DNA of 64,000 nt from Parazoarcus communis. GTDB taxonomy: Bacteria > Pseudomonadota > Gammaproteobacteria > Burkholderiales > Rhodocyclaceae. Below, one piece after another: positions 12,389 to 45,487 of the stretch. The DNA is taken from positions 3,162,001 through 3,226,000 of the forward strand of contig NZ_CP022187.1 in the NCBI RefSeq assembly GCF_003111645.1, given 5' to 3'. Position 1 is the first letter of the stretch; each line of letters begins with the position of its first letter. The notes beneath the pieces are model-generated. The model saw only the letters and a program-made list of their open reading frames with translations. It made no database searches and had not been told where the DNA came from. A program made the position numbers and the translations under genes.

Positions 12389-13849
12389 ATGCCCCTTACC
12401 CTCAAAGACCCGAGCCTGCTCCGTTCCAGCTGCTACATCGACGGCGAATGGATCGCCGCCGACGCCGGCGCCACCATCACCGTCACCAACCCCGCCACCG
12501 GCGAGACCGTCGGCACCGTGCCCAAGATGGGCCAGGCCGAAACCCGCCGCGCCATCGAAGCGGCCAACGCCGCATGGCCCGCATGGCGCAGCCTCACCGC
12601 CGGCGCGCGCTCGAAGATCCTGCGCCGCTGGTTCGAGTTGCTGCTCGAGCACCAGGACGACCTGGCCGTGCTGATGACCTCAGAGCAGGGCAAGTCGCTC
12701 ACCGAAGCCAAGGGCGAGATCGGCTATGCCGCCTCCTTCATCGAGTGGTTTGCCGAAGAGGGCAAGCGCATCTACGGTGACGTGATCCCCGGCCATCAGC
12801 CCGACAAGCGCATCGTCGTCACCAAGGAGCCGATCGGCGTGTGCGCCGCGATCACGCCCTGGAACTTCCCCTCGGCGATGATCACCCGCAAGGCCGGACC
12901 GGCGCTCGCCGCCGGCTGCACCATGGTGCTCAAGCCCGCCAGCCAGACCCCGCTGTCCGCACTGGCGCTGGCCGTGCTCGCCGAGCGCGCCGGCATTCCG
13001 AAGGGTGTGTTCAGCGTGGTCACCGGCTCGGCCGGCGAGATCGGCGGCGAACTCACCGCCAACCCCATCGTGCGCAAGCTCACCTTTACCGGCTCGACCG
13101 AGATCGGCATCAAGCTCGCCGCCCAGTGCGCACCCACGATCAAGAAGCTCTCGCTCGAGCTCGGCGGCAACGCGCCCTTCATCGTCTTCGACGACGCGGA
13201 CCTCGACGCCGCCGTCGAAGGGGCGCTCGCTTCCAAGTACCGCAACAGTGGCCAGACCTGCGTGTGCGCCAACCGCCTGCTGGTGCAGGACGGTGTGTAT
13301 GACGCCTTCGCCGAGAAGCTCGCCGCCGCCGTGGCCAAGCTCAAGGTCGGCAACGGGCTGGAAGCCGGCACCACCCAGGGCCCGCTGATCGACATGAACG
13401 CGGTGGAGAAAGTCGAAGAGCACATCGCCGACGCACTGTCCAAGGGCGCACGCCTGATGACCGGCGGCAAGCGCCATGCGCTCGGCCACACCTTCTTCGA
13501 GCCCACCATCCTCGCCGACGTGACGCCGGCCATGAAAGTGGCGAAAGAAGAAACCTTCGGCCCTGTTGCCCCGCTGTTCCGCTTCAAGGACGAGGCCGAG
13601 GCCATTCAGATGGCCAACGACACCGAGTTCGGCCTCGCCGCCTACTTCTACGCCGCTGGCATGAACCGCGTGTGGCGCGTCTCCGCTGCCCTTGAGTACG
13701 GCATCGTCGGCATCAACACCGGGATCATCTCCACCGAGGTCGCCCCCTTCGGCGGCGTGAAGTCGTCCGGTCTCGGACGTGAAGGTTCCAAGTACGGCAT
13801 CGAGGACTACCTCGAGATCAAATACCTGTGCATGGGCGGCGTGCAGTAA
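12389..13849 (+). CDS. gabD: Succinate-semialdehyde dehydrogenase, copy 1
   Basis: 486 residues, aldehyde dehydrogenase superfamily. The general base is in 'LELGGNAPF' (Glu257) and the nucleophile in 'NSGQTCVCANR' (Cys291); 'TPWNFPSAMITRKAGPALAA' and 'FTGSTEIG' belong to the NAD(P)-binding region. GabD oxidises succinic semialdehyde to succinate, the second step of GABA catabolism; gabT follows directly. From about base 12481 to the stop it is identical, as far as I can read, to a second gene at 44027-45487 on the other strand; nine substitutions are confined to the first ~92 bases. Confidence 0.95.
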   Translation: MPLTLKDPSLLRSSCYIDGEWIAADAGATITVTNPATGETVGTVPKMGQAETRRAIEAANAAWPAWRSLTAGARSKILRRWFELLLEHQDDLAVLMTSEQGKSLTEAKGEIGYAASFIEWFAEEGKRIYGDVIPGHQPDKRIVVTKEPIGVCAAITPWNFPSAMITRKAGPALAAGCTMVLKPASQTPLSALALAVLAERAGIPKGVFSVVTGSAGEIGGELTANPIVRKLTFTGSTEIGIKLAAQCAPTIKKLSLELGGNAPFIVFDDADLDAAVEGALASKYRNSGQTCVCANRLLVQDGVYDAFAEKLAAAVAKLKVGNGLEAGTTQGPLIDMNAVEKVEEHIADALSKGARLMTGGKRHALGHTFFEPTILADVTPAMKVAKEETFGPVAPLFRFKDEAEAIQMANDTEFGLAAYFYAAGMNRVWRVSAALEYGIVGINTGIISTEVAPFGGVKSSGLGREGSKYGIEDYLEIKYLCMGGVQ

Positions 13850-13885
13850 GCACCGTCGCCAGAACAATACCCTAGGAGAATCAGC

Positions 13886-15196
13886 ATGAACGCAACCACC
13901 CTGCCTGCAGGACAAACCAACAGTGCGCTGATGGCGCGTCGCGCCGCGGCCCTGCCGCGCGGCGTCGGCCAGGCTCACCCCCTGTTCGCATCCAAGGCCC
14001 TGAACGCCGAGATCTGGGACGTTGAAGGCCGTCGCTACATTGACTTCGTTGCCGGCATCGCCGTGGTCAACACCGGCCACTGCCACCCCAAGGTGATCGC
14101 CGCTGCCCAGGAGCAGATCCCGCACTTCAGCCACACCTGCTTCCAGGTCGTGGCCTATGACGGCTACCTGACCCTGGCCGAGCGCCTCAGCGCACTGGCC
14201 CCCGGCGATGCCCCGAAGAAAACCTTCTTCGTCAGCACCGGTGCCGAAGCCGTCGAGAACGCGGTCAAGATCGCGCGTGCCTTCACCGGTCGTCCAGGCG
14301 TGATCGCCTTCAACGGCGCCTTCCACGGCCGCACGCTGCTGACGCTCGGCCTCACCGGCAAGATCGACCCCTACAAGCTCGGCGTGGGTCCCTTCCCGGC
14401 CGAGATCTACCACGCGCCCTATCCCTGCGAACTGCACGGCACGAGCGTGGATGACGCCATCCACGGCATCGAGCTGCTGTTCAAGAACGACATCGAGCCC
14501 AAGCGCGTCGCCGCCTTCATCGTCGAGCCGGTTCAGGGCGAGGGCGGCTACTACCCCGCACCGGCCGAGTTCATGCAGCGGCTGCGCGCACTGGCGGACA
14601 AGCACGGCATCCTGCTGATCGCCGACGAGATCCAGAGCGGCGTCGGCCGCACCGGCAAGATGTTCGCCATGGAGCACAGCAATGTCGTGCCCGACCTCAT
14701 CACCATGGCCAAGGGCCTCGGTGGCGGTTTCCCGATTGCTGCCGTGGTTGGCCGCGCCGACATCATGGATGCGCTCAACCCGGGCGGCCTCGGCAGCACC
14801 TACGCCGGTGCGCCGATGGCCTGCGCAGCAGCGCTTGCCGTGCTCGACGTGGTCGAGTCCGAGAACCTGTGCCAGCGCGCCGCCGACATCGGCGAGCACA
14901 TGCAGGCCCGTCTGCGTGAGGTCGCGGCCAAGCAGAAGAGCATCGGTGATGTGCGCGGCCTCGGCGCAATGGTGGCGGTCGAGTTCTTCCACGACGGCGA
15001 CCACGCCCGCCCGGCGCCTGAACTGGTGAAGGCCATCATCGCCGAAGCGCTCAAGCGCGGCCTGCTGCTGCTGTCCTGCGGCAGCTACGGCAACGTGCTG
15101 CGTCTGATGGTGCCGCTGACCATTGAGCAGAACGTGCTCGACGAAGGTCTGGACATCCTCGCCGCCTCCATCGACGCAGTCATCGCTTCGGCCTGA
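13886..15196 (+). CDS. gabT: 4-aminobutyrate--2-oxoglutarate aminotransferase
   Basis: 436 residues of the class III (fold type I) PLP aminotransferases. The Schiff-base lysine is in 'ITMAKGLGGGFPIAAVVGR' (Lys276), preceded by 'LLIADEIQSGVGRTGKMFAM' with the PLP-ring aspartate; 'VSTGAEAVENAVKIAR' binds the cofactor phosphate. It converts GABA plus 2-oxoglutarate to succinic semialdehyde and glutamate. AGGAGAATCAGC precedes the ATG. Last gene of the operon; a strong terminator follows. Confidence 0.95.
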   Translation: MNATTLPAGQTNSALMARRAAALPRGVGQAHPLFASKALNAEIWDVEGRRYIDFVAGIAVVNTGHCHPKVIAAAQEQIPHFSHTCFQVVAYDGYLTLAERLSALAPGDAPKKTFFVSTGAEAVENAVKIARAFTGRPGVIAFNGAFHGRTLLTLGLTGKIDPYKLGVGPFPAEIYHAPYPCELHGTSVDDAIHGIELLFKNDIEPKRVAAFIVEPVQGEGGYYPAPAEFMQRLRALADKHGILLIADEIQSGVGRTGKMFAMEHSNVVPDLITMAKGLGGGFPIAAVVGRADIMDALNPGGLGSTYAGAPMACAAALAVLDVVESENLCQRAADIGEHMQARLREVAAKQKSIGDVRGLGAMVAVEFFHDGDHARPAPELVKAIIAEALKRGLLLLSCGSYGNVLRLMVPLTIEQNVLDEGLDILAASIDAVIASA

Positions 15197-15221
15197 AACC
15201 TGCGCTGATCGAGGGCAGACA

Positions 15222-15257
15222 AACGCCGCTTGCTGATAACGCAAGCGGCGTTTTTCG
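15222..15257. terminator. Rho-independent terminator between gabT and pxpA (convergent)
   Basis: AACGCCGCTTGC (15222-15233) pairs perfectly with GCAAGCGGCGTT (15241-15252) around a 7-nt loop, followed by TTTTT. It ends the GABA operon on the plus strand and may also serve the convergent pxp operon. Confidence 0.9.
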
Positions 15258-15315
15258 TTTACCGCAATGATTACCGATCAACCTGAACGACCGGTCGCGC
15301 GTTGGCGACAGCGAC

Positions 15316-16080
15316 CTAGAGCACGTCGGGCAAACCCACCACTTCCCGACCACCCGCCTCGAGGGCGGCGCGCAACCTGCGCGCGTTGTCCACCGCACCC
15401 GGCGTATCCCCATGCACGCAGATGCTGTGCATGACGGCCGGCAGCACTTTGCCGCCTTGCGACACCACGCCGCCAGCGTCGAGCATGCGCAGCACGTGTG
15501 CGACGAGCTCGTCGTGGTCATGAATGACCGCGCCGGGCTGGCCACGCGGCACCAGCATGCCGGCGTCGGTGTAGGCGCGATCGGCAAAGATCTCGGCCGC
15601 AACCCTCAGCCCTGCGCGTTCACCCGCCTTGTACAGCTCCGACAGCACCGGCGCGAGCAGAATCAGCCCGGGGTCGATTGCACGCACCGCACGCGCCACC
15701 GCGTCGGCCAGCGCCGCGTCCTCGCAGGCCTGGTTGTTGAGTGCGCCATGCGGCTTGACGTGGGTCACACGCCCGCCTTCTGCAGCGGCCATGCCGGCCA
15801 GCGCCCCGACCTGGTAGATCACCATCGCTTCGAGCTCGTTCGGGGCCATCTTCATCGGCCGCCGGCCGAAGCCCTGCAGGTCGGGATAGGACGGATGGGC
15901 GCCGAGACTCACGCCGGCGGCAAGGGCCGTGCGCACCGTATTGCGCATCACCAGCGGATCGCCGGCATGAAAGCCGCAGGCGATGTTGGCCGAGCGCACT
16001 ACCTGCAGCAGGGCATCGTCCTCGCCCATCTTCCAGGCGCCGAAGGATTCGCCGAGGTCGGCATTCAGGTTGATCTTCAT
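15316..16080 (-). CDS. pxpA: 5-oxoprolinase subunit A (LamB/YcsF family)
   Basis: 254 residues beginning 'MKINLNADLGESFGAWKMG', the hallmark of the LamB/YcsF family, with 'ANIACGFHAGDP' and 'VKPHGALNNQ' also present. Together with PxpB and PxpC it forms the ATP-dependent 5-oxoprolinase that opens 5-oxoproline to glutamate. Gene order on this strand is pxpB-pxpC-pxpA with overlapping ends. An alternative ATG at 16101 would overlap pxpC by 8 nt; I prefer 16080 by family length. Confidence 0.92.
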   Translation of the reverse strand: MKINLNADLGESFGAWKMGEDDALLQVVRSANIACGFHAGDPLVMRNTVRTALAAGVSLGAHPSYPDLQGFGRRPMKMAPNELEAMVIYQVGALAGMAAAEGGRVTHVKPHGALNNQACEDAALADAVARAVRAIDPGLILLAPVLSELYKAGERAGLRVAAEIFADRAYTDAGMLVPRGQPGAVIHDHDELVAHVLRMLDAGGVVSQGGKVLPAVMHSICVHGDTPGAVDNARRLRAALEAGGREVVGLPDVL

Positions 16081-16093
16081 GTCGGGTTCCAGG

Positions 16094-17149
16094 TCAGTCA
16101 TCGCCCGCGGTCAGCGGCCGGTATTCGGGCGAGCGCGCATTCACCACGCCGCCCACCAGGTTGGCGGAATACAGGGCAGTCAGGTCCACACCTTCCGCCA
16201 CAAACGGGCGGATCGCCGCGAGCAGGGCAAGGGTTTCGGCTTCGGTCTCACGTGCGATGCGCTCGCCCTCAGCCGCGCTGACGGCGGCAAAGCGCAGTGT
16301 CTGCCCGGGACGACAGGCGGCAAGCCGGGGAATGTCGCTGCCGATCACGGTCGCGATCTTGGGATAGCCACCGGCCGTCTGCGCATCGGCCAGCAGCACA
16401 ATGGGCTGGCCCTTGCCCGGCACCTGGATGGAGCCCGGCACGGTCGCATCGGAGATGATCTCTGCCGGGCCGAGATGCCCGAGCACCGGGCCCTCCAGCC
16501 GCACCCCCATGCGGTCGGCCTCGGCCGTGACGCGGTAATCGCTGCCCAGAAAGGTGTCGAATGTCTCCGCCGAAAAATGGTCTGCCTGCGGGCCGAAAAC
16601 GACGCGAATCGGACGCTCGTCGACCTCAGGCGGCTCGGGCAGGATGCGTTCGGCACCGCTGGCTGGCTGCGCCGGCACGCATACCCCGGCTGCAAGTGCG
16701 CGTCCATCCACACCGCCGAGGGCTGCGCGCGCATAGGTCGACGCACTGCCCAGCACCTGCGGCAGCGCCAGCCCCTCGAGCGCAAGCGCTGCGATGCGGC
16801 CGCTGCCCATGCGGCGGATGCGCAGGATGTCGCCATCGGCCAGCGTGACCGAGCGCCATGCCGGCAGCGGCTTGCGCTCGCCATCGTGTTCGATCTCGAG
16901 CACGGCATCGCCCGCCACGGCAACACGCACGGCGGCCCCACGCGCAAGCACCTGCAGGCCGCCGTCAAAGCACTCGATGACCGGCGCGGTGCCGGGGTTG
17001 CCGACCAGCGCATTGGCGATGCGCATCAGCCGGGGGTCGAGCACGCCGGCCCACGGCACGCCGATACGACGGAAGCCCCTGCGCCCGATGTCCTGCACCG
17101 ATGCATAGGCACCGGGTGAAACGATCTCGAGACTGGCCGGGCTGTTCAT
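16094..17149 (-). CDS. pxpC: 5-oxoprolinase subunit C (biotin-dependent carboxyltransferase-like)
   Basis: 351 residues. 'ASVQDIGRRGFRRIGVPWAG' and 'DPRLMRIANALVGNP' at the N-terminus, plus 'ILLADAQTAGGYPKIATVI'-type sequence near residue 255, mark the KipA/PxpC (AHS2) family. It starts inside the end of pxpB (4-nt ATGA overlap), so translation is coupled. The gene product works in complex with PxpB and PxpA. Confidence 0.92.
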   Translation of the reverse strand: MNSPASLEIVSPGAYASVQDIGRRGFRRIGVPWAGVLDPRLMRIANALVGNPGTAPVIECFDGGLQVLARGAAVRVAVAGDAVLEIEHDGERKPLPAWRSVTLADGDILRIRRMGSGRIAALALEGLALPQVLGSASTYARAALGGVDGRALAAGVCVPAQPASGAERILPEPPEVDERPIRVVFGPQADHFSAETFDTFLGSDYRVTAEADRMGVRLEGPVLGHLGPAEIISDATVPGSIQVPGKGQPIVLLADAQTAGGYPKIATVIGSDIPRLAACRPGQTLRFAAVSAAEGERIARETEAETLALLAAIRPFVAEGVDLTALYSANLVGGVVNARSPEYRPLTAGDD

Positions 17150-17910: not shown

Positions 17911-17929
17911 GGGCTTGTTCCTTGCTTGA

Positions 17930-18472
17930 TCAGGGTGCGGATGTCGAAGCGGCGCGTGCAGCCTGGTCGTAACGCCCCGAAAGGGTGCGAAGCAGGCGTG
18001 CCAGATCACCGATCTGTGCGTTGTCTTCGGCACTGCCGGTGAAACCGGGCATCAGGCAGGCTTCGCGCACATCGCGGTAAGCCACGCAAGCCTCGCGTCC
18101 AGCATCGGTCGTTGCGAAGAAGGCCTCCTTGCCCAGCTTCCTGCTGTGCACGAGTCCGAGTGCGGCGAGCTTGCGCAAGGAGTAGGACACCACGTGAGTG
18201 TCCTCGACGTTGAGCACGAAACAGATGTCAGCAAGGCGCTTTTCGCTGTCGCGGTGAGCAACATGATGCAGCACCAGCACGTCGATGGGCGTCATGTCCT
18301 TGATCCCGGCAGCGGTCATGCAGCGCGTCATCCAGCGCGAAAACGCGTGCCACGCAATGATCATCCCGAACTCGAACTCGGACAGTTCGGGCGATTTCGG
18401 CGACACCAGATGCTGGGAGGAAACGATCCGTCCTCCGTCATGCCCGACCAGCGGCACAAGTTGCTTGGGCAT
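17930..18472 (-). CDS. MarR-like winged-helix transcriptional regulator
   Basis: 180 residues. A central winged helix ('MTPIDVLVLHHVAHRDSEKR', 'VVSYSLRKLAALGLVHSRKL') is followed by a wing segment and a helical C-terminus, as in MarR-type dimers. It lies directly upstream of pxpBCA on the same strand and diverges from the TRAP transporter genes, so it is the obvious candidate to regulate both, probably in response to 5-oxoproline (inference). Confidence 0.8.
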   Translation of the reverse strand: MPKQLVPLVGHDGGRIVSSQHLVSPKSPELSEFEFGMIIAWHAFSRWMTRCMTAAGIKDMTPIDVLVLHHVAHRDSEKRLADICFVLNVEDTHVVSYSLRKLAALGLVHSRKLGKEAFFATTDAGREACVAYRDVREACLMPGFTGSAEDNAQIGDLARLLRTLSGRYDQAARAASTSAP

Positions 18473-34500: not shown

Positions 34501-37293
34501 GATCACATCAAGGTTGTGCTCGATCACGATCAGCGAATTGCCCGCTTCGAGCAGCTTGTTGAACGCACCCAGCAGGGTGGCGACGTCTTCGAAATGCAGA
34601 CCGGTCGTCGGCTCGTCGAACAGAAAGAGCAGACCAGGCGCGGCATCCCCCGCCTTATCCACGGACTTGCCAACAGTTTTATCCACAACTTTCGACGCGC
34701 GGCCGCCCTTCTTCTGCGCAGCTGCGGCCAGATGGCCGGCCAGCTTCAGTCGCTGCGCCTCACCACCCGACAGCGTCGGCACTGGCTGCCCCAGACGCAG
34801 ATAATCGAGGCCGACGTCGGACAGGGGTGCGAGCGCGGCCAGCACCTTGGGCTGATCGGCGAAGAAGCCCAGCGCCTCGCGCACCGTCATCTCCAGCACA
34901 TCAGCCACGGAATGGCCACGCCATTGCAGCTCAAGCACTTCAGGGCGATAGCGCTTGCCGTCGCAATCCGGGCAGCGCAGCCAGACATCCGACAGGAACT
35001 GCATCTCGACGTGCTCGAAGCCCGAGCCGGTGCAGGTCGGGCAGCGCCCGTGGCCGGCGTTGAAGCTGAAGGTGCCGGGCGAATAACCGCGCTGCTTGGC
35101 CTCCGGCAGGGCGGCAAACAGATTGCGGATCGGATCCCAGGCGCCAACATAACTGACCGGGTTGGAGCGCGAGCTCTTGCCAATGGCCGACTGATCGACC
35201 ATGACCACGCCGCGCAGTCCGTCCACGCCCTCCAGCCCGTCGAAGGCGCCCGGCGTGTCCACCGCCTCGCCAAAATGCTTTGCCAGCGCAGGATAGAGCA
35301 CATCCTGGATCAGGCTCGACTTGCCCGAACCCGACACCCCGGTCAGGCAGGTCATGCGCTGCAACGGGAAAGACACGCTGATTCCGCGCAGATTGTGCTC
35401 GCGCGCGCCGATCAGCCTCAGCCGTGGGGTCGCGGTATCGACCGGACGCGATGGACGCTCCACATCGATACGTTTCCTGCCCGCCAGCCAGGGACCTGTC
35501 ACCGAATCCGGATTTGCGGTGATCTCCGCCGGCGTGCCGCGGGCGACGATATTGCCGCCGCGCTCGCCAGGGCCGGGCCCGATCTCCAGCAACTCGTCCG
35601 CCGCCACCATGACCTGTGGATCGTGTTCGACCACCACCAGCGTGTTGCCCGCGTCGCGCAGCCGCGTCATCACCCCCAGGATGCGGCCGATATCGCGCGG
35701 ATGCAGGCCGATCGAGGGTTCGTCGAGCACGAACAACGTATTCACCAGCGAGGTTCCGAGTGCAGTGGTCAGGTTGATGCGCTGCACCTCGCCGCCGGAC
35801 AGCGTCCGCGACTGCCGGTCAAGCGTCAGGTAGCCCAGCCCAACATCGGCAAGATAGGTCAGCCGGCTGCGGATCTCGCCCAGCACCAGTTCGGTCGCCT
35901 CGTCTGCCACCCCGGGCAGCTCAAGTGCGGTGATGGCTTCGCGGATGCGATCGACCGGCATCGCCATCAGCTGGTGGATCGCCAACCCTCTTTTTTCAAA
36001 GGGGTCAGAGTCGTTTGATCGAGCAGTCAGATCAAACGACTCTGACCCCTTTGAAACAGGCAAGCGCCACAGCAAGGCATCGGGCTTGAGCCGCGCGCCG
36101 TGGCAGGAGGGACATTCGGTGTAGCTGCGGTAGCGCGACAGCAGCACCCGGATGTGCATCTTGTAGGCCTTGGTCTCGAGCCAGACAAAGAAATGGCGCA
36201 CGCCGTACCAGTAGCGCGGCCATGAGCTGTCCCAGTTCTTCCACTTGGCGTCGCCTTCGAGCACCCACTGCCGGTGTTCCGGCGGCAGGTCGCGGAAGGG
36301 GACGTCCATCGCCACCCCGGCCTTCTTCGCCATCTTTGCCAGATCCTGCTGGCACTCGCGGTAGCTCTCTGTCTGCCACGGCTTGATCGCGCCTTCGGCC
36401 AGCGTCTTCGATTCGTCCGGGATCACCAGGCCGAAATCCACCCCGATGACACGGCCGAATCCGCGACAGGTCTCGCACGCCCCGATCGGCGAATTGAAGG
36501 AGAACAGGCCCGGGGTCGGATCGCTGTAGTGGATGTCGCAGTCGGCACAATGCAGACCCTGCGAATAGCGCCACTCAGCCTCTTCGCCATCGCCGGCGGC
36601 AAACACACGCAAGCGGCCATGGCCCAGACGGAGTGCCGCTTCCAGCGCTTCAGCCAGACGCGAGGGCTCGGCCGCCGAGAAGCGGAAGCGGTCCTGCACG
36701 ACCTGCAGCACATCGGCGTCCACACCCTCTTCGCGCCGATGGATGCGGGTATAGCCCTGTGCGTTGAGCAGCGCGGTGATCTCGGCCTCGCTGTAGGTTT
36801 TCGGCACGGTGAGCGGAAAGCAGACCATCAGTCGCGGATCGCCCGCGGCCGCAGCGCGACGGCCGAGGTCCTCACCGATGCTGTCCACCGAGTCACGCTT
36901 GACCGGCTTGCCGCAGCAGCGGCAGTGCAGGTGCGAGGCGCGGGCGTAGAGCAGCTTGAAGTGGTCCGCAAGCTCAGTCATGGTCCCGACCGTGGAGCGC
37001 GAGGTGCGCACCTGGCTGGTCTGATCGATCGCGATGGCCGGCGGCACGCCCTCGATGCGGTCGACCTGAGGCTTGTCCATGCGGTCGAGAAACTGACGCG
37101 CGTAGGGCGAGAAGGTCTCGACGTAGCGGCGCTGCCCCTCAGCGTACAAGGTGTCGAATACCAGCGAGGACTTGCCCGAACCGGATACCCCGGTCACCAC
37201 CGTGAGGCGGTTCAGCGACAGGTCGAGCGAGAGATTGCGGAGATTGTTCTGACGTGCGCCGCGAATGCGGATGCTGTCTTTGAGGTCGGGCAT
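31543..37293 (-). CDS. uvrA: Double-length UvrA-type excinuclease ATPase (four ABC cassettes)
   Basis: ~1916 residues, twice the usual UvrA length (~940). There are four Walker A motifs 'G(V/L)SGSGKS' at about residues 35, 651, 1031 and 1572, and CxxC zinc-module pairs in both halves, so it is two UvrA units in tandem. UvrA dimers find bulky DNA lesions; a fused pair would be a covalent pseudo-dimer. The first half has 'RTSRSTVGTMTEL', the second 'GGRKSTVATLTEI'. Two palindromic DNA elements are inserted in frame (residues ~413-433 and ~1238-1271). A 'VVDKTVGKSVDKAG' linker precedes the second ABC signature region. ATG 37293 chosen by family N-terminus; 37326 and 37353 are alternatives. Confidence 0.88.
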   Translation of the reverse strand: MPDLKDSIRIRGARQNNLRNLSLDLSLNRLTVVTGVSGSGKSSLVFDTLYAEGQRRYVETFSPYARQFLDRMDKPQVDRIEGVPPAIAIDQTSQVRTSRSTVGTMTELADHFKLLYARASHLHCRCCGKPVKRDSVDSIGEDLGRRAAAAGDPRLMVCFPLTVPKTYSEAEITALLNAQGYTRIHRREEGVDADVLQVVQDRFRFSAAEPSRLAEALEAALRLGHGRLRVFAAGDGEEAEWRYSQGLHCADCDIHYSDPTPGLFSFNSPIGACETCRGFGRVIGVDFGLVIPDESKTLAEGAIKPWQTESYRECQQDLAKMAKKAGVAMDVPFRDLPPEHRQWVLEGDAKWKNWDSSWPRYWYGVRHFFVWLETKAYKMHIRVLLSRYRSYTECPSCHGARLKPDALLWRLPVSKGSESFDLTARSNDSDPFEKRGLAIHQLMAMPVDRIREAITALELPGVADEATELVLGEIRSRLTYLADVGLGYLTLDRQSRTLSGGEVQRINLTTALGTSLVNTLFVLDEPSIGLHPRDIGRILGVMTRLRDAGNTLVVVEHDPQVMVAADELLEIGPGPGERGGNIVARGTPAEITANPDSVTGPWLAGRKRIDVERPSRPVDTATPRLRLIGAREHNLRGISVSFPLQRMTCLTGVSGSGKSSLIQDVLYPALAKHFGEAVDTPGAFDGLEGVDGLRGVVMVDQSAIGKSSRSNPVSYVGAWDPIRNLFAALPEAKQRGYSPGTFSFNAGHGRCPTCTGSGFEHVEMQFLSDVWLRCPDCDGKRYRPEVLELQWRGHSVADVLEMTVREALGFFADQPKVLAALAPLSDVGLDYLRLGQPVPTLSGGEAQRLKLAGHLAAAAQKKGGRASKVVDKTVGKSVDKAGDAAPGLLFLFDEPTTGLHFEDVATLLGAFNKLLEAGNSLIVIEHNLDVIAAADWIIDLGPEGGDGGGEIVVEGSPEQVRAHPSSHTGLALREYAEALARTRAAPAMVAEAPAAYRALTAPAIEIHHAREHNLKNISVSIPRDRFTVVTGLSGSGKSTLAFDIVFGEGQRRYLESLNAYARQFVQPSSRPDVDGVFGIPPTVAIEQRTSRGGRKSTVATLTEIHPFLRLMYVKLGTQYCPDCQVPVTPQSFEAIVAQIQRELRGASVEVLAPLVTNRKGLYTDLAKWARGKGHAQLRVDGEYLPTAKWPRLDRYKEHTIELPLGMVMVQPEHEATLREFVRAALEHGKGVLKVLRLVSKGSVSKGSESFDPLDQTTLTPLKLSNDSDPFEITFSTLRACPSCGTGFPEPDPRLFSYNAKHGWCPKCFGTGLKTAARVEDPDALDLGDAEDSVSRDEPCPACEGARLNPVARAVRFRDRGLHQLAKLAVNKVADFFGELVLNERENDIARDLVSEIRGRLDFLQHVGLGYLALDRAAPTLSGGEAQRIRLAAQLGSNLRGVCYILDEPTIGLHPRDNRLLLDTLEALRDRGNTLLVVEHDEDTIRRADHVIDLGPGAGVRGGRVVAEGDVAALLAAPESATGACFRNPLQHPMRPRRPVAEDHPAIRVEGASLHNLRNIDARIPLARLTVVTGVSGSGKSSLARDVIHANLRARLGDPEAVRARRRGKAQPEEVDQTLVGCRSLEGWQQVGRVLEVDQTPIGKTPRSCPATYVGFWDAIRKLFADTFDARTRGWSASRFSFNTGAGRCPSCDGAGQTTVEMNFLPDVKTPCEACGGARFNPETLSVRWREKTVAEVLAMPVDEAVGFFAAHPSIAHPLQLLQDVGLGYLTLGQPSPTLSGGEAQRIKLVTELSKVRNRPGDAAAATGLPLPADRHTLYVLDEPTVGLHMADVDKLIHVLHRLTDAGHTVLVIEHDLDVMAEADWLIDLGPEGGDGGGQIVAEGPPEVAMDNPASHTGRHLVEFLAARCGTAEPKPA
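33480..33582. repeat. Compound palindromic (REP-like) element inside uvrA
   Basis: Two direct copies of a ~26-bp arm (33480-33505 and 33508-33534, core GGGGTCAGAGTCGTTTGA) are followed by a full inverted arm (33540-33566) and a partial one (33568-33582). The central pair forms a perfect 27-bp stem with a 5-nt loop. The whole is translated in frame as a Ser/Lys/Gly/Asp-rich insert just before the zinc-module sequence 'TLRACPSCG'. Confidence 0.9.
35994..36056. repeat. Perfect 27-bp palindromic element inserted in frame in uvrA
   Basis: Left arm 35994-36020 and right arm 36030-36056 are exact inverted copies of 27 bp around a 9-nt loop. The arm is the same as that of the element at 33480-33582. 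Total length 63 bp (21 codons), so it keeps the frame; it encodes 'KGSESFD' and 'NDSDPFE' on the two arms, between 'DALLWRLP' and 'GLAIHQLMA'. Confidence 0.92.
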
Positions 37294-37457
37294 GGCTGGG
37301 CTGCTGGAGGGGCGCAAGATGGTCATTGTAGGCTGCAGACCCGATCGCGGCACGATAGGTTCAAGCAGCCATCACAATCATATCGAACGCGCCCGGCAAA
37401 ACCGGATCAGCCGGATCCGGTCCCCGGGTGTCAATGGCGCATGAGCGCCAGTAGCGC

Positions 37458-37998: not shown

Positions 37999-38016
37999 GC
38001 ATTGGATCGGTGCAAA

Positions 38017-38574
38017 TTACTTCACGCGAGCGCGGTATTCGTCAGTGCGGGTATCGATTTCAATCTTGTCGCCGATTTCGACGAAGGCCGGAACCGGCAG
38101 CTCGAAACCGGTCTTGATGCGGGCCGGCTTCATGACTTTGCCCGAGGTGTCGCCCTTCACGGCCGGCTCGGTGTATTCCACTTCGCGCACGACGGCGTTG
38201 GGCAGCTCGACCGAGATCGCCTTGCCGTTGTAGAACACCACTTCGCAGGCCAGGCCGTCTTCGAGGTACTTGAGCGCGTCGGTCATGTTTTCGGCTTCGA
38301 CTTCGTACTGCTCGTAGTCGGCGTCCATGAACACGTACATCGGATCAGCGAAGTAGGAGTAGGTCACTTCCTTGCGGTCGAGCTGGACCACTTCGAACTT
38401 GTCGTCAGCCTTGTAAACCGATTCCGACGGCGCGCCGGTCAGCAGGTTCTTGAGCTTCATCTTCACGACCGCAGCGTTGCGGCCGGACTTGTTGTACTCG
38501 GATTTCTGTACCACCAGCGGGTCGGCGCCGACCATGATGACGTTGCCCGAGCGGAGTTCCTGTGCGGTTTTCAT
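38017..38574 (-). CDS. efp: Elongation factor P, arginine-32 type
   Basis: 185 residues, three beta-barrel domains. The loop that reaches the peptidyl-transferase centre reads '[10 protein letters not shown]' with Arg32 at the tip instead of the lysine of E. coli. In this subgroup Arg32 is rhamnosylated by EarP, which is encoded immediately upstream on the same strand (38638-39807). EF-P relieves ribosome stalling at polyproline; several products here are proline-rich. Confidence 0.96.
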
Positions 38575-38637
38575 GCTGTGTCCTGAACTTGATGCGGCGC
38601 GACCGTAGACGCTAACCCGATACGAAAGCGCGCGATT

Positions 38638-39807
38638 CTACCCTCTCGCGTCGACTATGTGGTTGCAGAATTGCGTCAGACGCATCGCCAGATCCGGCAT
38701 CGCCGCCTGGCTCAGACCCCAGTTTTCCGCGTGTGGACCGATCACCGGAAGGCCTTCGGCAAACGCAGACCACGCGGCAGCAGGCACTCCGCGACCGTTC
38801 CAAGCATGCCAGAACGCTACGAGCGCCTTGGCCGCCGCCGGGTCCAGACCCGCACGATAGCGTTGCAAAAAAGCATCAAGCTTGTCGAAGTGCGCCTCGT
38901 CGTCCTGCGCATAGATGTGCCAGACGAAAGGCTTGCCCGCCCATTGCGCGCGCACAAATGAATCCTCGCCGCGGACGAAATTCAGGTCGCTCACCCACAG
39001 CAGGCGATCGTAAGCGTCCTGGTCGGTGAAGGGCAGCACGGCGAGCGAGAGACTGCCTTTGCGCAGTCGCGCACCCGCGCTCAGCCCGTGCACACCAAAG
39101 GCCCGCGCAAGGTCGCCCAGCACCCGGCCTTCAGGCACCAGCAGCAGCACCGGGCGGCTGCTCCGCGCCCAGATCTCTACAAGATCCGTCAGCCCCGGCT
39201 GCTCGTAGGCAAACAAGGAGACGATCAGCGTATCCGCGCCAGGAAGCGCAACCTCGTTCGTCGCCAGCCATGCGGCCCGCCCGTCTTGCTGCAGAAAGCC
39301 GTCACGGGCCGCAATCAGCCCGGTCTCGCGCAACAGCCCGCCACCGGCGGCATCGAAACCGGGGAAAAAGAAGTGTTTGGTCAAGGGTTGTGAAGGATGG
39401 GGCGAAGCCAGACCATGGCAACCGCTCACCCAGTCCTCGGCCGACAGATACTCGAGGTTGATCCAGACCGGCGCCACAGGCCGTGCAGCCATCGCCTCGA
39501 CGTGGGCCTCGGGCAAGGTACAGGCGAAGGCCTCGATGACCACAGCGGCCGGCTCAAGCCGCTCGAGCGGCATCGTCCACTGCCGGATGTCGACGCCCTC
39601 GACCACCGCCTGCTGCACTGCAGTACGAAGCACCGGACACAGGCGCGAAAACGCGACGAAGTCGTCCACCCAGAGTCGCACCCGAAAGCCGTGATCGCGC
39701 ACGAGTGAGCGCGCAAGTCGCCAGCAGACGCCGATATCCCCATAGTTATCCACAACCTGACAGAAAATCTCGTAGTCAGGCGGGGGAAGAGGCGCGTTTT
39801 CGGTCAT
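38638..39807 (-). CDS. earP: EF-P arginine rhamnosyltransferase
   Basis: 389 residues. 'IFCQVVDNYGDIGVCWRLAR' near the N-terminus contains the Asp that acts in catalysis (DNYGD), and 'LNFVRGEDSFVRAQWAGKPF' near residue 270 is the dTDP-rhamnose-binding region of the EarP (former DUF2331) family. It transfers rhamnose from dTDP-rhamnose to Arg32 of EF-P. efp is the next gene, 63 bp downstream. ATG 39807 fits the family start. Confidence 0.95.
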   Translation of the reverse strand: MTENAPLPPPDYEIFCQVVDNYGDIGVCWRLARSLVRDHGFRVRLWVDDFVAFSRLCPVLRTAVQQAVVEGVDIRQWTMPLERLEPAAVVIEAFACTLPEAHVEAMAARPVAPVWINLEYLSAEDWVSGCHGLASPHPSQPLTKHFFFPGFDAAGGGLLRETGLIAARDGFLQQDGRAAWLATNEVALPGADTLIVSLFAYEQPGLTDLVEIWARSSRPVLLLVPEGRVLGDLARAFGVHGLSAGARLRKGSLSLAVLPFTDQDAYDRLLWVSDLNFVRGEDSFVRAQWAGKPFVWHIYAQDDEAHFDKLDAFLQRYRAGLDPAAAKALVAFWHAWNGRGVPAAAWSAFAEGLPVIGPHAENWGLSQAAMPDLAMRLTQFCNHIVDARG

Positions 39808-39969
39808 CGTCGTGAACAAGTCGGGGGATTAAATCGGGAAAGGATGTGGACAAAGGCTTAGGAAGGAAATGGTCGGAAAAGCATGGACATTTCATGCACA
39901 GCTGATTAGGGGGTTTATCAACCTGCTTATCAGACCGCGAATCTTGCACTGCAGCAGGCGCTATCCGAG

Positions 39970-39978
39970 TTATCCACA
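39970..39978 (+). promoter_or_regulatory. Perfect DnaA box in AT-rich gap upstream of earP
   Basis: TTATCCACA, an exact DnaA-box 9-mer, followed within 15 bp by a ~45-bp AT-rich run (to ~40035) that contains GTTTACTT...AAGTAAAC. The 39820-40050 gap otherwise holds no gene; another exact 9-mer at 39746-39754 lies within earP codons for the conserved VVDN motif. Confidence 0.55.
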
Positions 39979-40051
39979 GATTTTGGCCCACTGTTTACTT
40001 CTTTATCTTTATATTTAATAAAGTAAACAACAAACAAAAGCTCAAACAAAA

Positions 40052-40097
40052 AGGCGGTCCGAGTCCGGCAAACACCTGCCGGAACCCAGGACCGCCT
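40052..40097 (-). terminator. Terminator of the pseudouridine synthase gene
   Basis: AGGCGGTCC (40052-40060) pairs with GGACCGCCT (40089-40097), with an inner stem CCGGCA/TGCCGG. On the minus strand it is followed by TTTTTG. Confidence 0.8.
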
Positions 40098-40106
40098 GCG
40101 GGTCAA

Positions 40107-40832
40107 TCAGGAATAGTTGTTGAGCTGCTCAAGGTCGGCAGCTTCCAGCCAGCGCCATTCACCCGGGGCCAGCTGCGCATCGAGTTCGAGTCCACCGACA
40201 CGGCTGCGGTGCAGGGCTTCCACCCGGTTGCTGGCTGCACCGATCATGCGCTTGACCTGGTGATACTTGCCTTCGCACAGGGTGAGCTGCAGCGTATGCG
40301 AACCGGTCTGAACACAGGCCGTTGCCGCAACCGGTGCGGGTTCGTCATGCATCTGCACCCCGGCAAGGAGCGCCGCGATCAGTTCGGGCGTCACTTCGTG
40401 CTTGAGCGTGACCTCGTAGACCTTGGGCGTGCGCTTCTTGCCCGAACTCCAGTAGTGAATGAACTTGCCATTGTCGGAAAACAGCAGCAGCCCGGTCGTA
40501 TCCTGGTCGAGTCGGCCGATGCTCTGCACACCGCGCAGCAGCATCTGTGGTGGCAGCAGCTTGAAAACGGAAGGGTGAAAAGTCGGTTTCAGCGAACATT
40601 CGTAGCCGACCGGCTTGTGCAGCATCAGGTAAGCCTCGGCGCGGAACTGCCACGGCTGATCGCCGATCGTGAACTCAAGCCCGGGAACACCATCGCTGCC
40701 GCCGGGTTCAAAGTCTGCGAAAGGGTCGTCACACGGAACACCGGCAACACTGACGTGCCCGGCACGGACGAGGGCGCGGCATTCCTTGCGGCTGCCGAAA
40801 CCCTGGGAGTGGAGAAGTCGTTCGATTTGCAT
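40107..40832 (-). CDS. rsuA: 16S rRNA pseudouridine synthase (RsuA family)
   Basis: 241 residues. N-terminal S4 RNA-binding domain ('SRKECRALVRAGHVSVAG') and a catalytic domain with 'SIGRLDQDTTGLLLFSDNG', whose Asp is the nucleophile. 'GKYHQVKRMIGAASNRVEAL' is the second family motif. RsuA isomerises U516 of 16S rRNA. I start at ATG 40832, where the S4 domain begins; ATG 40841 is also possible. Confidence 0.9.
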   Translation of the reverse strand: MQIERLLHSQGFGSRKECRALVRAGHVSVAGVPCDDPFADFEPGGSDGVPGLEFTIGDQPWQFRAEAYLMLHKPVGYECSLKPTFHPSVFKLLPPQMLLRGVQSIGRLDQDTTGLLLFSDNGKFIHYWSSGKKRTPKVYEVTLKHEVTPELIAALLAGVQMHDEPAPVAATACVQTGSHTLQLTLCEGKYHQVKRMIGAASNRVEALHRSRVGGLELDAQLAPGEWRWLEAADLEQLNNYS

Positions 40833-40955
40833 GGCTGGCATGGTATCGCGGATGCCCCCTGCGCTTCATCCCATCTCCACCAGGGCCGGCGCCAGCGCTG
40901 CGACCATCCTCAAGCTCGGGGTAAACTGCGGGCCTGACCGGCAAGGAGACCGTCT

Positions 40956-41426
40956 TTGAAATTCGAACATCTCATCGAGGTCAATGACCTCGCCAATCCG
41001 CTGCTTACCGTGCTTAGCCGCGAAGAAGTCTGGTTCGGGCTGTTGTGCCGCGCCGAGGATTCGCGTGCGTTTCTCCCCGGACTCGAGCGCTGCACCATCC
41101 TCGAACGCAAGGAAGGCGAACTCCTGCGCGAACTCAATTTCGGACAGGTCAGCATTCGCGACCGGGTGCTCTTCAGCGAACTCGAGTGGATCAGCTTCGA
41201 ATCCGAAGCCACCGCAGAGCACGCGGGCGGCAAACTGGTGATCAGCATCGAAGAGCCCGAGGCCGGCGTGCTGTTCCTGCGCTTCGTCTATTCGACCAGC
41301 CTGCCCGACGCCAACGGAAGCGAAGAGGCAAAGTATGCCGATATCGTTCGCTCTGCCTATCATCAGTCCGACATCGACACCATGAAGGTGATCCGCATGA
41401 TCGCCGAGTCGGGACGGCTGCAATAA
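40956..41426 (+). CDS. DUF1857 (SRPBCC-like) family protein
   Basis: 156 residues starting at TTG 40956, which has AAGGAG 7-8 nt upstream and yields the family start 'MKFEHLIEVND'. 'LSREEVWFGLLCRAEDSRAF' and the beta-rich remainder match DUF1857, a small START/Bet v1-like ligand-binding fold of unknown function. Single gene, 66 bp before rdgC on the same strand. Confidence 0.8.
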   Translation: MKFEHLIEVNDLANPLLTVLSREEVWFGLLCRAEDSRAFLPGLERCTILERKEGELLRELNFGQVSIRDRVLFSELEWISFESEATAEHAGGKLVISIEEPEAGVLFLRFVYSTSLPDANGSEEAKYADIVRSAYHQSDIDTMKVIRMIAESGRLQ

Positions 41427-41492
41427 TCCTTTCCATCCGGCGTCCGTTGCCGATGCAGCGGGCGCTTTTTCGTTCACATCAGGAAATAAATC

Positions 41493-42452
41493 ATGTGGTT
41501 CAAGAACCTGCAGTTGTATCGCCTGCCCACAGGGTGGGACATGAGCATCGAGAAACTGGAAGAGCAACTGGCCAAGAAGCCCTTCAACCCGTGTGGCAGC
41601 CAGGACATGGAGAGTCGCGGCTGGCTCTCGCCCCTGGGTAACGAAGTTCTGGTCCATGCAGTGGGTGGCCAGTGGCTGATCGCACTTGGTTTCGAACATC
41701 GTCTGCTGCCGTCCTCCGTAGTCAAGCAGGAAGCCGACGAACGCGCAGCGGAAATGGCCGACCAGCAAGGCTTCAAACTCGGTCGCAAGCAGATGAAGGA
41801 TCTGCGCGAACAGGTCGCTCAGGAACTGATGCCGCGCGCCTTTACCCGTCGTCGTCGCCTTCACGCCTGGATCGACCCGGTTGGCGGTTGGCTGGCGGTG
41901 GACGCGCCAAGTCAGGCTCGCGCCGAAGATGTCATCGAAGAACTGCGTCACTGCCTCGACAGTTTCCCGCTGACGCTGGTGCGCACCGAACGCTCGCCGG
42001 TTTCGGCAATGGCCGACTGGCTTGCAGGCAACGAAGCGCCGGCAGGTTTCAGCATCGACCAGGACTGCGAACTGCGTTCGGTCACCGAGGACAAGGCAGC
42101 AGTGCGTTACGTTCGTCATCCGCTCGAAGGCGACGAGATCAAGGGTCACCTCGAAGCCGGCAAGTTGCCGACACGTCTGGCCCTGACCTTTGACGACCGC
42201 GTGAGTTTCGTTCTCACCGACAAGCTCGAGATCAAGCGCATCGATTTCCTCGACGTGGTGCGCGACCAGATCGACGGTCAGGCGGAAGACGAAGAGGCGC
42301 TTTTCAACGCCGAGTTTGCCCTGATGACCGGCGAGCTGGGTCAGTTGCTGCCTGCTGTCGTTGAAGCACTGGGTGGCGAGTTGAAGCAGGAGGCCACAAC
42401 GGAGGTTCATTCGGCAGTGACGAAGTCAGCTGCAGGTGATCCACCGTTCTGA
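41493..42452 (+). CDS. rdgC: Recombination-associated protein RdgC
   Basis: 319 residues beginning 'MWFKNLQLYRL', with 'FGHRLLPSSVVKQE'-type sequence (here 'FEHRLLPSSVVKQEADE') and 'RRRRLHAWIDPVGGWLAVDA'. RdgC forms a ring dimer that binds double-stranded DNA and modulates RecA. It ends at a strong terminator and is followed by an AT-rich gap with DnaA boxes. Confidence 0.95.
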   Translation: MWFKNLQLYRLPTGWDMSIEKLEEQLAKKPFNPCGSQDMESRGWLSPLGNEVLVHAVGGQWLIALGFEHRLLPSSVVKQEADERAAEMADQQGFKLGRKQMKDLREQVAQELMPRAFTRRRRLHAWIDPVGGWLAVDAPSQARAEDVIEELRHCLDSFPLTLVRTERSPVSAMADWLAGNEAPAGFSIDQDCELRSVTEDKAAVRYVRHPLEGDEIKGHLEAGKLPTRLALTFDDRVSFVLTDKLEIKRIDFLDVVRDQIDGQAEDEEALFNAEFALMTGELGQLLPAVVEALGGELKQEATTEVHSAVTKSAAGDPPF

Positions 42453-42487
42453 GTGGACACGAGGGCGTAAGCCCGAGAGCAGGTCAA

Positions 42488-42520
42488 AGCGCTGTCGCAT
42501 TTGCGGCGGCGCTTTTTTTT
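42488..42520 (+). terminator. Terminator of rdgC
   Basis: AGCGCTGTCGC (42488-42498) pairs with GCGGCGGCGCT (42503-42513) with one mismatch, followed by eight T. Confidence 0.88.
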
Positions 42521-42542
42521 GGGGTGTTCAAAGGGTGTACAC

Positions 42543-42724
42543 AGTATTTAAAGATTTAAAAGACTATAAAGATTATAGTGACCCGAAATCTGTGGATAAG
42601 CACTTTTAACCCATATAAAACAGTTTCTTGGCTATCTGGTAAACGTGTGCACAGCACCCTTGTAAACGACAGGATCATTTGTTGATGAAATTTCTGCCGC
42701 TAGTGTTTACTCAACTTATCCACA
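42543..42724. promoter_or_regulatory. AT-rich island with two inverted perfect DnaA boxes
   Basis: TGTGGATAA (42591-42599) and TTATCCACA (42716-42724) are exact, oppositely oriented DnaA boxes 125 bp apart. A conspicuous AT-rich run (42543-42577, TATTTAAAGATTTAAAAGAC onward) precedes them, unlike the high-GC surroundings. The 42453-42858 gap between rdgC and the catabolic island holds no gene. Confidence 0.55.
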
Positions 42725-42804
42725 ATCTGCACGGTGTCTGAATAACAGCTTATACATGCTGCTTTTCGTGCACTTTCGATGCGGCTGATCATCGCGGTGG
42801 ACGT

Positions 42805-42836
42805 AAAAAAGGGGAGGAATCCATCGGATCCTCCCC
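42805..42836 (-). terminator. Terminator of the catabolic island operon
   Basis: GGGGAGGA (42811-42818) and TCCTCCCC (42829-42836) form the stem; read on the minus strand it is followed by TTTTTT. It lies just past the stop of the last iron alcohol dehydrogenase gene. Confidence 0.9.
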
Positions 42837-42858
42837 TTCCTTGAACACGAAAAACGAT

Positions 42859-44016
42859 CTACAGAATCGATCGATAGATTGCCGTGACCTCTTCCAGGTT
42901 CATGTCGCAAGGGTTGGTGGCGATCAGGCGTTGAATCTGCGTCACCACTTCTTCGGCCATGCCGGGAATGTCGGCTTCACCGACCCCCAGCTGGCTCAGA
43001 CGGGTTTCGAGCCCACCATATCCGGCCATCTCTTCCATGCGACTGACGAAGGCCTCTGCGGCTTCTGCTTCGGACGCGAAGCTGCGGCCAGGGAGTACGC
43101 ACCGCGCCAGCTCGGCGTAGGCGGCTGTGGCAGCCCTGAGATTGAAGCGCAGTACCGGCCCCATAACCAGGGCGTTGGAATGCCCGTGCGGGACGTGGAA
43201 GCGTGCGCCAAGCGGGTAGGCAAGACCATGGATGGCCGCAACGGAAGCATTGACGAAGGCCATACCACCCAGCATTGCGCCTTCCAGCACGGCCGAACGC
43301 GCCTGCAGATCCTGACCGTTCTCGAGAACGAGGGGCAGGTTGCGTGAGAGCAGCTCAAGTGCCTTGCGTGCAAGGGCGTCGGCAACCGGGTTCTTGCGCG
43401 TGCGGCTGGTGTAGGCCTCGATGGCATGCACCATCGCATCCAGCGCGGTTGCTGCGCTGACCTTGGGTGGCATGCCCACGGTCAGTCCGGCATCGAGCAG
43501 GGCGATGTCGGGCAGCAGCTGGGGCGTATAGACGGCCTTCTTCTCACCATTCTCGTTGGTGATGACGGACACCCAGGTGACCTCCGAGCCGGTACCGGCC
43601 GTGGTCGGTACCTGAATCAGTGGCAGGCGGCCGCCAGTGGCCATGTCGACGCCGTAGATCTCTTCGATCGTCTGTGTCGAATGCGCCAGCAAGGCCACGA
43701 CCTTGGCGGTATCCAGTGAGGAACCGCCGCCGAGGCCGATGATGCCGTCGGCCTCGGCGGCTCTCGCCGCTTCCACCGCCTTGCGCACCATCTCCACCGG
43801 AGGATCGGCAAGGACGGCATCGAAGGTCGCGGCTTTCAGCCCCGCTGCAGCGAGGACCCTGCTTGCCCGACCGGCGATGCCGCAGGCGACGATCCCCTGG
43901 TCGCACACGAGCAGCGGCCGTTTGATCGCCAGCTCCTGCGCGAGCTGACCGAGGCATTCGAGACCGTCGATCTCGGAGATGATCCGTGGCGGGGCACGGA
44001 ATACGAAGTCAGTCAT
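42859..44016 (-). CDS. Iron-containing alcohol dehydrogenase, copy A
   Basis: 385 residues from ATG 44016 (AAGGAG upstream). Group III alcohol dehydrogenase: NAD-binding 'GIIGLGGGSSLDTAKVVALL', 'VPTTAGTGSEVT', and metal ligands in 'DAMVHAIEAYTS' and 'HGLAYPLGARFHVPHGHSNA'. It oxidises a primary alcohol or omega-hydroxyacid to the aldehyde; 4-hydroxybutyrate dehydrogenase belongs to this family. It lies 10 nt downstream of gabD copy 2, whose substrate would be the product. Last gene of the operon. Confidence 0.92.
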   Translation of the reverse strand: MTDFVFRAPPRIISEIDGLECLGQLAQELAIKRPLLVCDQGIVACGIAGRASRVLAAAGLKAATFDAVLADPPVEMVRKAVEAARAAEADGIIGLGGGSSLDTAKVVALLAHSTQTIEEIYGVDMATGGRLPLIQVPTTAGTGSEVTWVSVITNENGEKKAVYTPQLLPDIALLDAGLTVGMPPKVSAATALDAMVHAIEAYTSRTRKNPVADALARKALELLSRNLPLVLENGQDLQARSAVLEGAMLGGMAFVNASVAAIHGLAYPLGARFHVPHGHSNALVMGPVLRFNLRAATAAYAELARCVLPGRSFASEAEAAEAFVSRMEEMAGYGGLETRLSQLGVGEADIPGMAEEVVTQIQRLIATNPCDMNLEEVTAIYRSIL

Positions 44017-44026
44017 TTGGGTCTCC

Positions 44027-45487
44027 TTACTGCACGCCGCCCATGCACAGGTATTTGATCTCGAGGTAGTCCTCGATGCCGTACTTGGAACCTTCACGTC
44101 CGAGACCGGACGACTTCACGCCGCCGAAGGGGGCGACCTCGGTGGAGATGATCCCGGTGTTGATGCCGACGATGCCGTACTCAAGGGCAGCGGAGACGCG
44201 CCACACGCGGTTCATGCCAGCGGCGTAGAAGTAGGCGGCGAGGCCGAACTCGGTGTCGTTGGCCATCTGAATGGCCTCGGCCTCGTCCTTGAAGCGGAAC
44301 AGCGGGGCAACAGGGCCGAAGGTTTCTTCTTTCGCCACTTTCATGGCCGGCGTCACGTCGGCGAGGATGGTGGGCTCGAAGAAGGTGTGGCCGAGCGCAT
44401 GGCGCTTGCCGCCGGTCATCAGGCGTGCGCCCTTGGACAGTGCGTCGGCGATGTGCTCTTCGACTTTCTCCACCGCGTTCATGTCGATCAGCGGGCCCTG
44501 GGTGGTGCCGGCTTCCAGCCCGTTGCCGACCTTGAGCTTGGCCACGGCGGCGGCGAGCTTCTCGGCGAAGGCGTCATACACACCGTCCTGCACCAGCAGG
44601 CGGTTGGCGCACACGCAGGTCTGGCCACTGTTGCGGTACTTGGAAGCGAGCGCCCCTTCGACGGCGGCGTCGAGGTCCGCGTCGTCGAAGACGATGAAGG
44701 GCGCGTTGCCGCCGAGCTCGAGCGAGAGCTTCTTGATCGTGGGTGCGCACTGGGCGGCGAGCTTGATGCCGATCTCGGTCGAGCCGGTAAAGGTGAGCTT
44801 GCGCACGATGGGGTTGGCGGTGAGTTCGCCGCCGATCTCGCCGGCCGAGCCGGTGACCACGCTGAACACACCCTTCGGAATGCCGGCGCGCTCGGCGAGC
44901 ACGGCCAGCGCCAGTGCGGACAGCGGGGTCTGGCTGGCGGGCTTGAGCACCATGGTGCAGCCGGCGGCGAGCGCCGGTCCGGCCTTGCGGGTGATCATCG
45001 CCGAGGGGAAGTTCCAGGGCGTGATCGCGGCGCACACGCCGATCGGCTCCTTGGTGACGACGATGCGCTTGTCGGGCTGATGGCCGGGGATCACGTCACC
45101 GTAGATGCGCTTGCCCTCTTCGGCAAACCACTCGATGAAGGAGGCGGCATAGCCGATCTCGCCCTTGGCTTCGGTGAGCGACTTGCCCTGCTCTGAGGTC
45201 ATCAGCACGGCCAGGTCGTCCTGGTGCTCGAGCAGCAACTCGAACCAGCGGCGCAGGATCTTCGAGCGCGCGCCGGCGGTGAGGCTGCGCCATGCGGGCC
45301 ATGCGGCGTTGGCCGCTTCGATGGCGCGGCGGGTTTCGGCCTGGCCCATCTTGGGCACGGTGCCGACGGTCTCGCCGGTGGCGGGGTTGGTGACGGTAAT
45401 GGTGGCGCCGGCGTCGGCGGCGACCCATTCGCCATCGATGTAGCAGCTGGAACGGAGCAGGCTCGGGTCCTTGAGTGCGAGTGTCAT
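44027..45487 (-). CDS. gabD: Succinate-semialdehyde dehydrogenase, copy 2
   Basis: 486 residues, differing from copy 1 (12389-13849) only at a few positions before residue 25 (residues 2-4 and Ile/Val 22). The nucleophile Cys291 and base Glu257 are intact. After ~92 bases at the 5' end with nine substitutions, I found no DNA difference down to the stop. It lies between a thioesterase gene and an iron alcohol dehydrogenase gene. The near-identity points to recent duplication or gene conversion, not to separate ancestry. Confidence 0.95.
   Translation of the reverse strand: MTLALKDPSLLRSSCYIDGEWVAADAGATITVTNPATGETVGTVPKMGQAETRRAIEAANAAWPAWRSLTAGARSKILRRWFELLLEHQDDLAVLMTSEQGKSLTEAKGEIGYAASFIEWFAEEGKRIYGDVIPGHQPDKRIVVTKEPIGVCAAITPWNFPSAMITRKAGPALAAGCTMVLKPASQTPLSALALAVLAERAGIPKGVFSVVTGSAGEIGGELTANPIVRKLTFTGSTEIGIKLAAQCAPTIKKLSLELGGNAPFIVFDDADLDAAVEGALASKYRNSGQTCVCANRLLVQDGVYDAFAEKLAAAVAKLKVGNGLEAGTTQGPLIDMNAVEKVEEHIADALSKGARLMTGGKRHALGHTFFEPTILADVTPAMKVAKEETFGPVAPLFRFKDEAEAIQMANDTEFGLAAYFYAAGMNRVWRVSAALEYGIVGINTGIISTEVAPFGGVKSSGLGREGSKYGIEDYLEIKYLCMGGVQ

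Follow-up and report, generated by a model that had tools for sequence, protein, structure and literature searches.

Evidence for concerted evolution of two gabD genes located in unrelated operons of Parazoarcus communis

Two gabD genes in inverted orientation

The genome of Parazoarcus communis (G000) codes for two nearly identical copies of gabD, the gene attributed to nicotinamide adenine dinucleotide phosphate (NADP)-dependent succinate-semialdehyde dehydrogenase. Both are located on a single 4.57 Mb contig, within the stretch of 64,000 nt that was analyzed here (the window). Copy A (12389..13849, forward strand) belongs to the operon for 4-aminobutyrate (GABA), and copy B (44027..45487, reverse strand) to an operon on a genomic island. 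Each copy is 1461 bp long. Copy A is predicted to be a true GabD, as it reaches the curated equivalog cut-off of NCBIfam NF008415 (905 bits versus 828 bits). Copy B differs from it at residues 2, 4 and 22.

Throughout, nucleotides (nt) within gabD are counted from the start codon. The copies differ by nine substitutions, at nt 4, 6, 9, 10, 12, 18, 54, 64 and 90, and not once across nt 91-1461. This base-by-base alignment confirms the initial annotation, which had described genes of equal length with nine substitutions at the 5' end and none from there to the stop codon. Chance identity is out of the question, because the orthologs from a sister species (see below) differ beyond nt 100 at 60 (copy A) or 56 (copy B) sites, whereas A and B have no difference beyond nt 90. 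The copies are the core of an inverted repeat (arms 12384-13850 and 44026-45492, 99% complementary, spacing 30,175 nt). No further inverted pair was detected in the window by the same repeat search (seed 16, minimum 60). Genome-wide, there are ten GabD protein matches: A and B, one at 73% and seven at 31-54% amino acid identity. The flanks had been described as unrelated, and this is borne out, apart from the leader of copy B (see below), by the gene order, which is permease-gabD-gabT for copy A and thioesterase-gabD-iron alcohol dehydrogenase for copy B.

Both copies are shared with a sister species

As the initial annotation had proposed, related genomes were searched for the number of copies. 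Five genomes of the genus were covered (G000 and four others, G001-G004). The sister species G002 (one contig) has both gabD copies, at the same places and in the same orientation as in G000. One close copy (91%) was found in G003, and none above 76% in G001 and G004. The genomes of G000 and G002 align collinearly from window position 1 to 53869 (~94%) and further to 63867.

The two copies of G002 differ at 29 positions, namely nt 4, 6, 9, 10 and 12 plus 24 scattered ones, and their proteins differ at two residues (three in G000). The five copy-specific sites (12392..12400, forward strand, in copy A; 45476..45484, reverse strand, in copy B) are thus the same in both species. Because the places are also shared, the duplication is older than the split between G000 and G002, and only the homogenization is recent. 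The initial annotation had allowed for either recent gene conversion or recent duplication of the coding sequence. Of these, conversion with a sharp 5' border stands, whereas recent duplication is contradicted by the presence in G002 of both copies, with the same five sites, at the same places.

It had also been suggested that recombination might flip the 30 kb between the copies. Such a flip could occur in principle, but none was observed: G000 and G002 share their gene order, and both junctions are of kinds found in relatives. The segment has the same orientation in both genomes (2/2) that carry the two copies, with each assembly displaying one orientation only, so that a less frequent isomer might still exist.

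Homogenization after the species split

Orthologs of G000 and G002 differ at 63 (A) or 61 (B) positions, compared to 9 and 29 differences between the copies within G000 and G002, respectively. Paralogs are thus closer within a species than orthologs are between species, the pattern by which concerted evolution is recognized. Among the four sequences, 81 sites are variable: five distinguish the copies, 48 the species, none is crosswise and 28 are private to one sequence. Sites that follow the copy are confined to nt 4-12, with none beyond nt 12, and those that follow the species are spread over nt 36-1419, which constitutes a tract-like border (Fisher p 3.5e-7 for the split into copy and species sites, where the cut at nt 12 was chosen once the sites were known). 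Polarized against G003 as outgroup, the 48 species sites comprise 30 with the derived state in the G000 lineage, 17 with it in the G002 lineage and one that is undecided. Since derived sites occur in both lineages, the gabD bodies were homogenized after the split in both species.

Private sites number one (A) and three (B) in G000, and 14 (A) and 10 (B) in G002. All four from G000 are within nt 13-90 (p 8e-6 if evenly spread over nt 13-1461, with the cut chosen afterwards). Because of this confinement, the last conversion tract in G000 seems to run from about nt 91 to the end of the gene (12479..13849, forward strand, in A, identical to 44027..45397, reverse strand, in B). The segment covering nt 13-90 of copy A (12401..12478, forward strand), which holds the four private differences between A and B, was apparently outside this last conversion. 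For the G002 pair, no patchiness in the form of a long clean stretch was found (longest 219 nt, p 0.43).

The synonymous divergence (dS) is 0.017 within the G000 pair, 0.079 within the G002 pair and 0.163-0.166 between orthologs. Silent differences spread over the gene, which the initial annotation had regarded as evidence against its view, were looked for, and none was found, dS being 0 beyond nt 90 in G000. Given no differences in 1371 nt (upper bound ~3) versus ~60 between orthologs, and assuming equal rates, the last conversion in G000 may be placed within roughly the final twentieth of the period that has passed since the split.

The gabD tree comprises 21 of the 27 loci L125-L151 (without L135, L137, L142, L146, L149 and L150) and one of 80 named loci; the tree for constraint tests comprises 17 of 39 rows. 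Constraints that group A with A or B with B are both rejected (p-AU in the approximately unbiased (AU) test 3e-5 and 6e-7). These tests were run after the tree was seen, with the groups themselves defined by synteny.

Gene neighborhoods

Upstream of copy A is a polyamine-type ATP-binding cassette (ABC) permease (11476..12360, forward strand; best match PotC, below the cut-off), the true start of which may be downstream of the start of the open reading frame (ORF). Downstream is gabT, coding for 4-aminobutyrate aminotransferase (13886..15196, forward strand; TIGR00700 above the cut-off). G002 has ~0.8 kb of extra sequence just past gabT, at window positions 15303-15306.

Copy B resides on an island of 13.7 kb (42757..56439, reverse strand). 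G003 and G004 lack this island and have ~295 and ~340 nt between its two flanks. All of the island genes assigned a product here are encoded on the reverse strand. An iron-containing alcohol dehydrogenase (42859..44016; Pfam PF00465/PF25137) is encoded downstream of gabD, and a 4HBT-type thioesterase (45509..45955; Pfam PF13279) upstream. Next to the thioesterase is a second iron-containing alcohol dehydrogenase (45968..47122; Pfam PF00465/PF25137), which is 55% identical to the first. For the ORF at 47103-47894, no Pfam family was matched. The remainder codes for an ABC transporter of the branched-chain/urea type (47788..53195; one recognized ATPase, two permeases and two binding proteins) and for a sigma-54-type response regulator with a histidine kinase (53380..56429). 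No border repeat was recognized at the island ends on reading the sequence; no repeat search was run there. The slot (42757-56439) is empty in G003 and G004 and contains the full catabolic operon in G000 and G002. In G001, it contains a lone gabD (74%), oriented like copy B, without the remainder of the island. The slot is a possible insertion hot spot. The gene rdgC (41493-42452, forward strand), coding for recombination-associated protein RdgC, directly adjoins it at 42757.

The combination of iron alcohol dehydrogenase and succinate-semialdehyde dehydrogenase suggests that the B operon oxidizes 4-hydroxybutyrate or a like compound. Breakdown of 4-hydroxybutyrate or a similar C4 compound is a guess from gene content, and both island dehydrogenases score below the NCBIfam cut-off for 4-hydroxybutyrate dehydrogenase. 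In Pseudomonas putida, according to PMC7090098, an iron alcohol dehydrogenase is required for growth on 4-hydroxybutyrate, and an assay with cell extract failed.

Between the two copies, an ORF of 1936 amino acids (31543-37353, reverse strand) has three stretches of similarity to UvrA (in total 1979 bits, best over residues 25-995) and is apparently a double-length UvrA. Direct repeats at 31.9-37.2 kb fall within this ORF. The GC skew changes from negative to positive at about 38000-44000. There are no transfer RNA genes in the window.

Origin of copy B

Among 28 loci from other genomes of the genus and family (L013 and L125-L151, with short flanks in many cases), 10 show the order permease-gabD-gabT, and copy A is therefore taken to occupy the ancestral place. 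In 199 genomes of the family, the upstream island genes were matched in eight and the downstream dehydrogenase in five (E <=1e-60; G000 and G002 included). Six of the eight were examined (G000, G002, G052, G057, G144 and G179, but not G074 and G195). G052, which belongs to another genus, has the same block (~76-77% identity); gabD occupies the corresponding position, and the thioesterase is missing there. G057 and G144 have the order dehydrogenase-thioesterase-gabD without the downstream dehydrogenase, and G179 has thioesterase-gabD with a dehydrogenase ~6 kb off.

The gabD genes of these four relatives, of the G001 slot and of G193 form a separate clade (96 in the Shimodaira-Hasegawa-like approximate likelihood ratio test (SH-aLRT); 100/100 in the constraint-test tree), while the B copies of G000 and G002 fall inside the clade of GABA-operon gabD genes. 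Placing them in the clade of the operon relatives is rejected (p-AU 1.6e-4). The 12-nt leader of copy B matches that of the GABA-operon copy of G003 at 9/12 (G000) or 10/12 (G002) positions. Leaders were found for 28 of 39 rows, and only 9 of 378 pairs match at 9/12 or more, the other seven pairs joining either corresponding copies of G000 and G002 or genomes that share a genus. Since the four operon relatives carry the other gabD clade while copy B is in that of the GABA operon, the native gabD of the B operon was probably displaced, from leader to stop codon, by the GABA-operon type before the split. We are less sure of this displacement than of the later homogenization.

In a search of the 199 genomes (E <=1e-200, two candidates scored per genome, 117 genomes matched), only G000 and G002 have two places with at least 80% identity to the query, a count which gauges likeness to the gabD of G000 and not the likeness between copies inside other genomes. 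Among the matches listed, the best GabD protein identity in named genomes is 83%, and plasmid records contain no gabD match above 90%. The gabD gene of G136 is identical to that of Tepidiphilus margaritifer.

Comparison with known systems

The process is ordinary gene conversion as in tufA/tufB; it is the gene that is unusual. Conversion between tufA and tufB is known from Salmonella, as described in PMC5485169 and PMC8262849. According to the latter, inverted copies gave rise to inversions in as many as a quarter of tuf events and in 5/59 clones of a Salmonella cassette system. As inversion is thus a minority outcome, a few conversions without inversion are unremarkable in our case.

The tuf pairs of the same genomes differ at 6/1191 (G000) and 19/1191 (G002) sites, a spread similar to that of gabD (9 and 29 of 1461). 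Between the genomes, tuf has 16-25 differences. Unlike gabD, however, this tuf pair is in direct orientation and shows no clean grouping by species (the G002 copies are not grouped by species), and the concerted pattern is clearer in gabD than in tuf. Also unlike tuf, gabD specifies a dehydrogenase of catabolism, its two operons are unrelated and one of them is on a variable island, and its copy B seems to have replaced a diverged paralog.

Long-lasting concerted evolution in prokaryotes, e.g., of amoCAB, haoAB and cycAB, is described in PMC6053082. As in gabD, these duplicates are in conserved synteny and are closer within than between species. The gabD case is, however, much younger, lying within one genus. 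The main text of that paper does not mention gabD or a dehydrogenase; its supplement was not searched. Literature searches on gabD and gene conversion gave nothing on such a case by title, among the matches listed, and none was found for succinate-semialdehyde dehydrogenase and concerted evolution.

Proposed scenario and alternatives

We consider it very probable that copies A and B go back to a duplication of gabD and evolve in concert, with homogenization in each species after the split, probably preceded by a displacement before it. As judged from the tree, a copy of the GABA-operon gabD would have replaced, before the split, the gabD of an island operon composed of alcohol dehydrogenase, thioesterase, gabD and alcohol dehydrogenase, apparently from the ribosome-binding leader through the stop codon. 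As the site patterns show, the inverted copies were homogenized again in each species after the split, most recently in G000 over nt 91-1461. The mechanism is likely to be gene conversion that depends on RecA and takes place without crossover between the two inverted copies of 1.46 kb. The extreme 5' end may have stayed copy-specific because it is at the edge of the shared sequence, which tracts would seldom reach. Succinic semialdehyde is, on paper, a product of both operons, and the gabD copies could therefore be interchangeable between them.

Because the proteins are almost identical (three residues differ in G000, two in G002), strong purifying selection might be thought to keep the copies alike without recombination. 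This has practically no chance of being correct, as dS is 0 over nt 91-1458 versus 0.16 between orthologs; purifying selection alone is ruled out by the identity at silent sites. If the coding sequence had recently been duplicated into the island in the two species independently, the copies would also be most alike within each genome. Such duplicates would, however, have had to arrive at the same place, in the same orientation and with the same five sites at nt 4-12, and this we regard as extremely improbable. It is very improbable, too, that the copies of G000 truly differ and that one consensus was written twice upon assembly or polishing. In favor of such an artifact, differences remain only beside one unique flank, but true differences beside the other unique flank should also survive, and none is there. 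Moreover, G002 is homogenized as well, with scattered differences, and the genome of G000 is one contig. Finally, the island could have been acquired by horizontal transfer already with a GABA-type gabD, which would require later homogenization only and no displacement in this lineage. Its absence from G003 and G004 agrees with this, but the four operon relatives examined and the G001 slot have the other gabD clade, and the leader of copy B resembles that of the GABA operon of G003. We thus consider a ready-made island doubtful.

Several observations weigh against displacement followed by concerted evolution. The signals for the direction of the last conversion are conflicting: five private sites of the G002 copy B and three of its copy A match G003, which reflects either opposite directions or repeated mutation. 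Some other genes have an ortholog dS as low as that within the G002 gabD pair (SBP1 0.055, earP 0.063, the ATPase 0.072 and the regulator 0.074). Rates vary along the locus, where the dS of other ORFs between G000 and G002 ranges from 0.055 to 0.45 and is below that of gabD for 13 of 15 (values for 17 of 20 genes, with the permease and the ORFs 30268 and 21503 left out); the highest value is for an ORF (16094-17149) that is possibly not a genuine gene. Results of the tuf control are mixed: within G002 there are more differences (19) than in one pair of orthologs (16). Homologous recombination with a target of ~24% divergence would not easily produce a displacement whose end coincides with the stop codon. 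That the perfect identity over 1371 nt results in part from assembly or polishing is unlikely.

Implications

To our knowledge, most descriptions of concerted evolution in bacteria concern rRNA, translation genes and certain multi-copy operons. In the gabD pair it affects a peripheral catabolic enzyme, in a clean case with an approximate date for which two informative species, an outgroup and a comparison to the native paralog are available. We lean slightly towards the view that conversion acted as a capture device, by which the resident gabD overwrote an island paralog of ~24% divergence from leader to stop codon, and that it has since kept two operons on one enzyme sequence across speciation, each with its own translation start. 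This suggests that resident homologs can rewrite genes on a variable island. Such rewriting would mislead gene trees that are used for tracing horizontal transfer.
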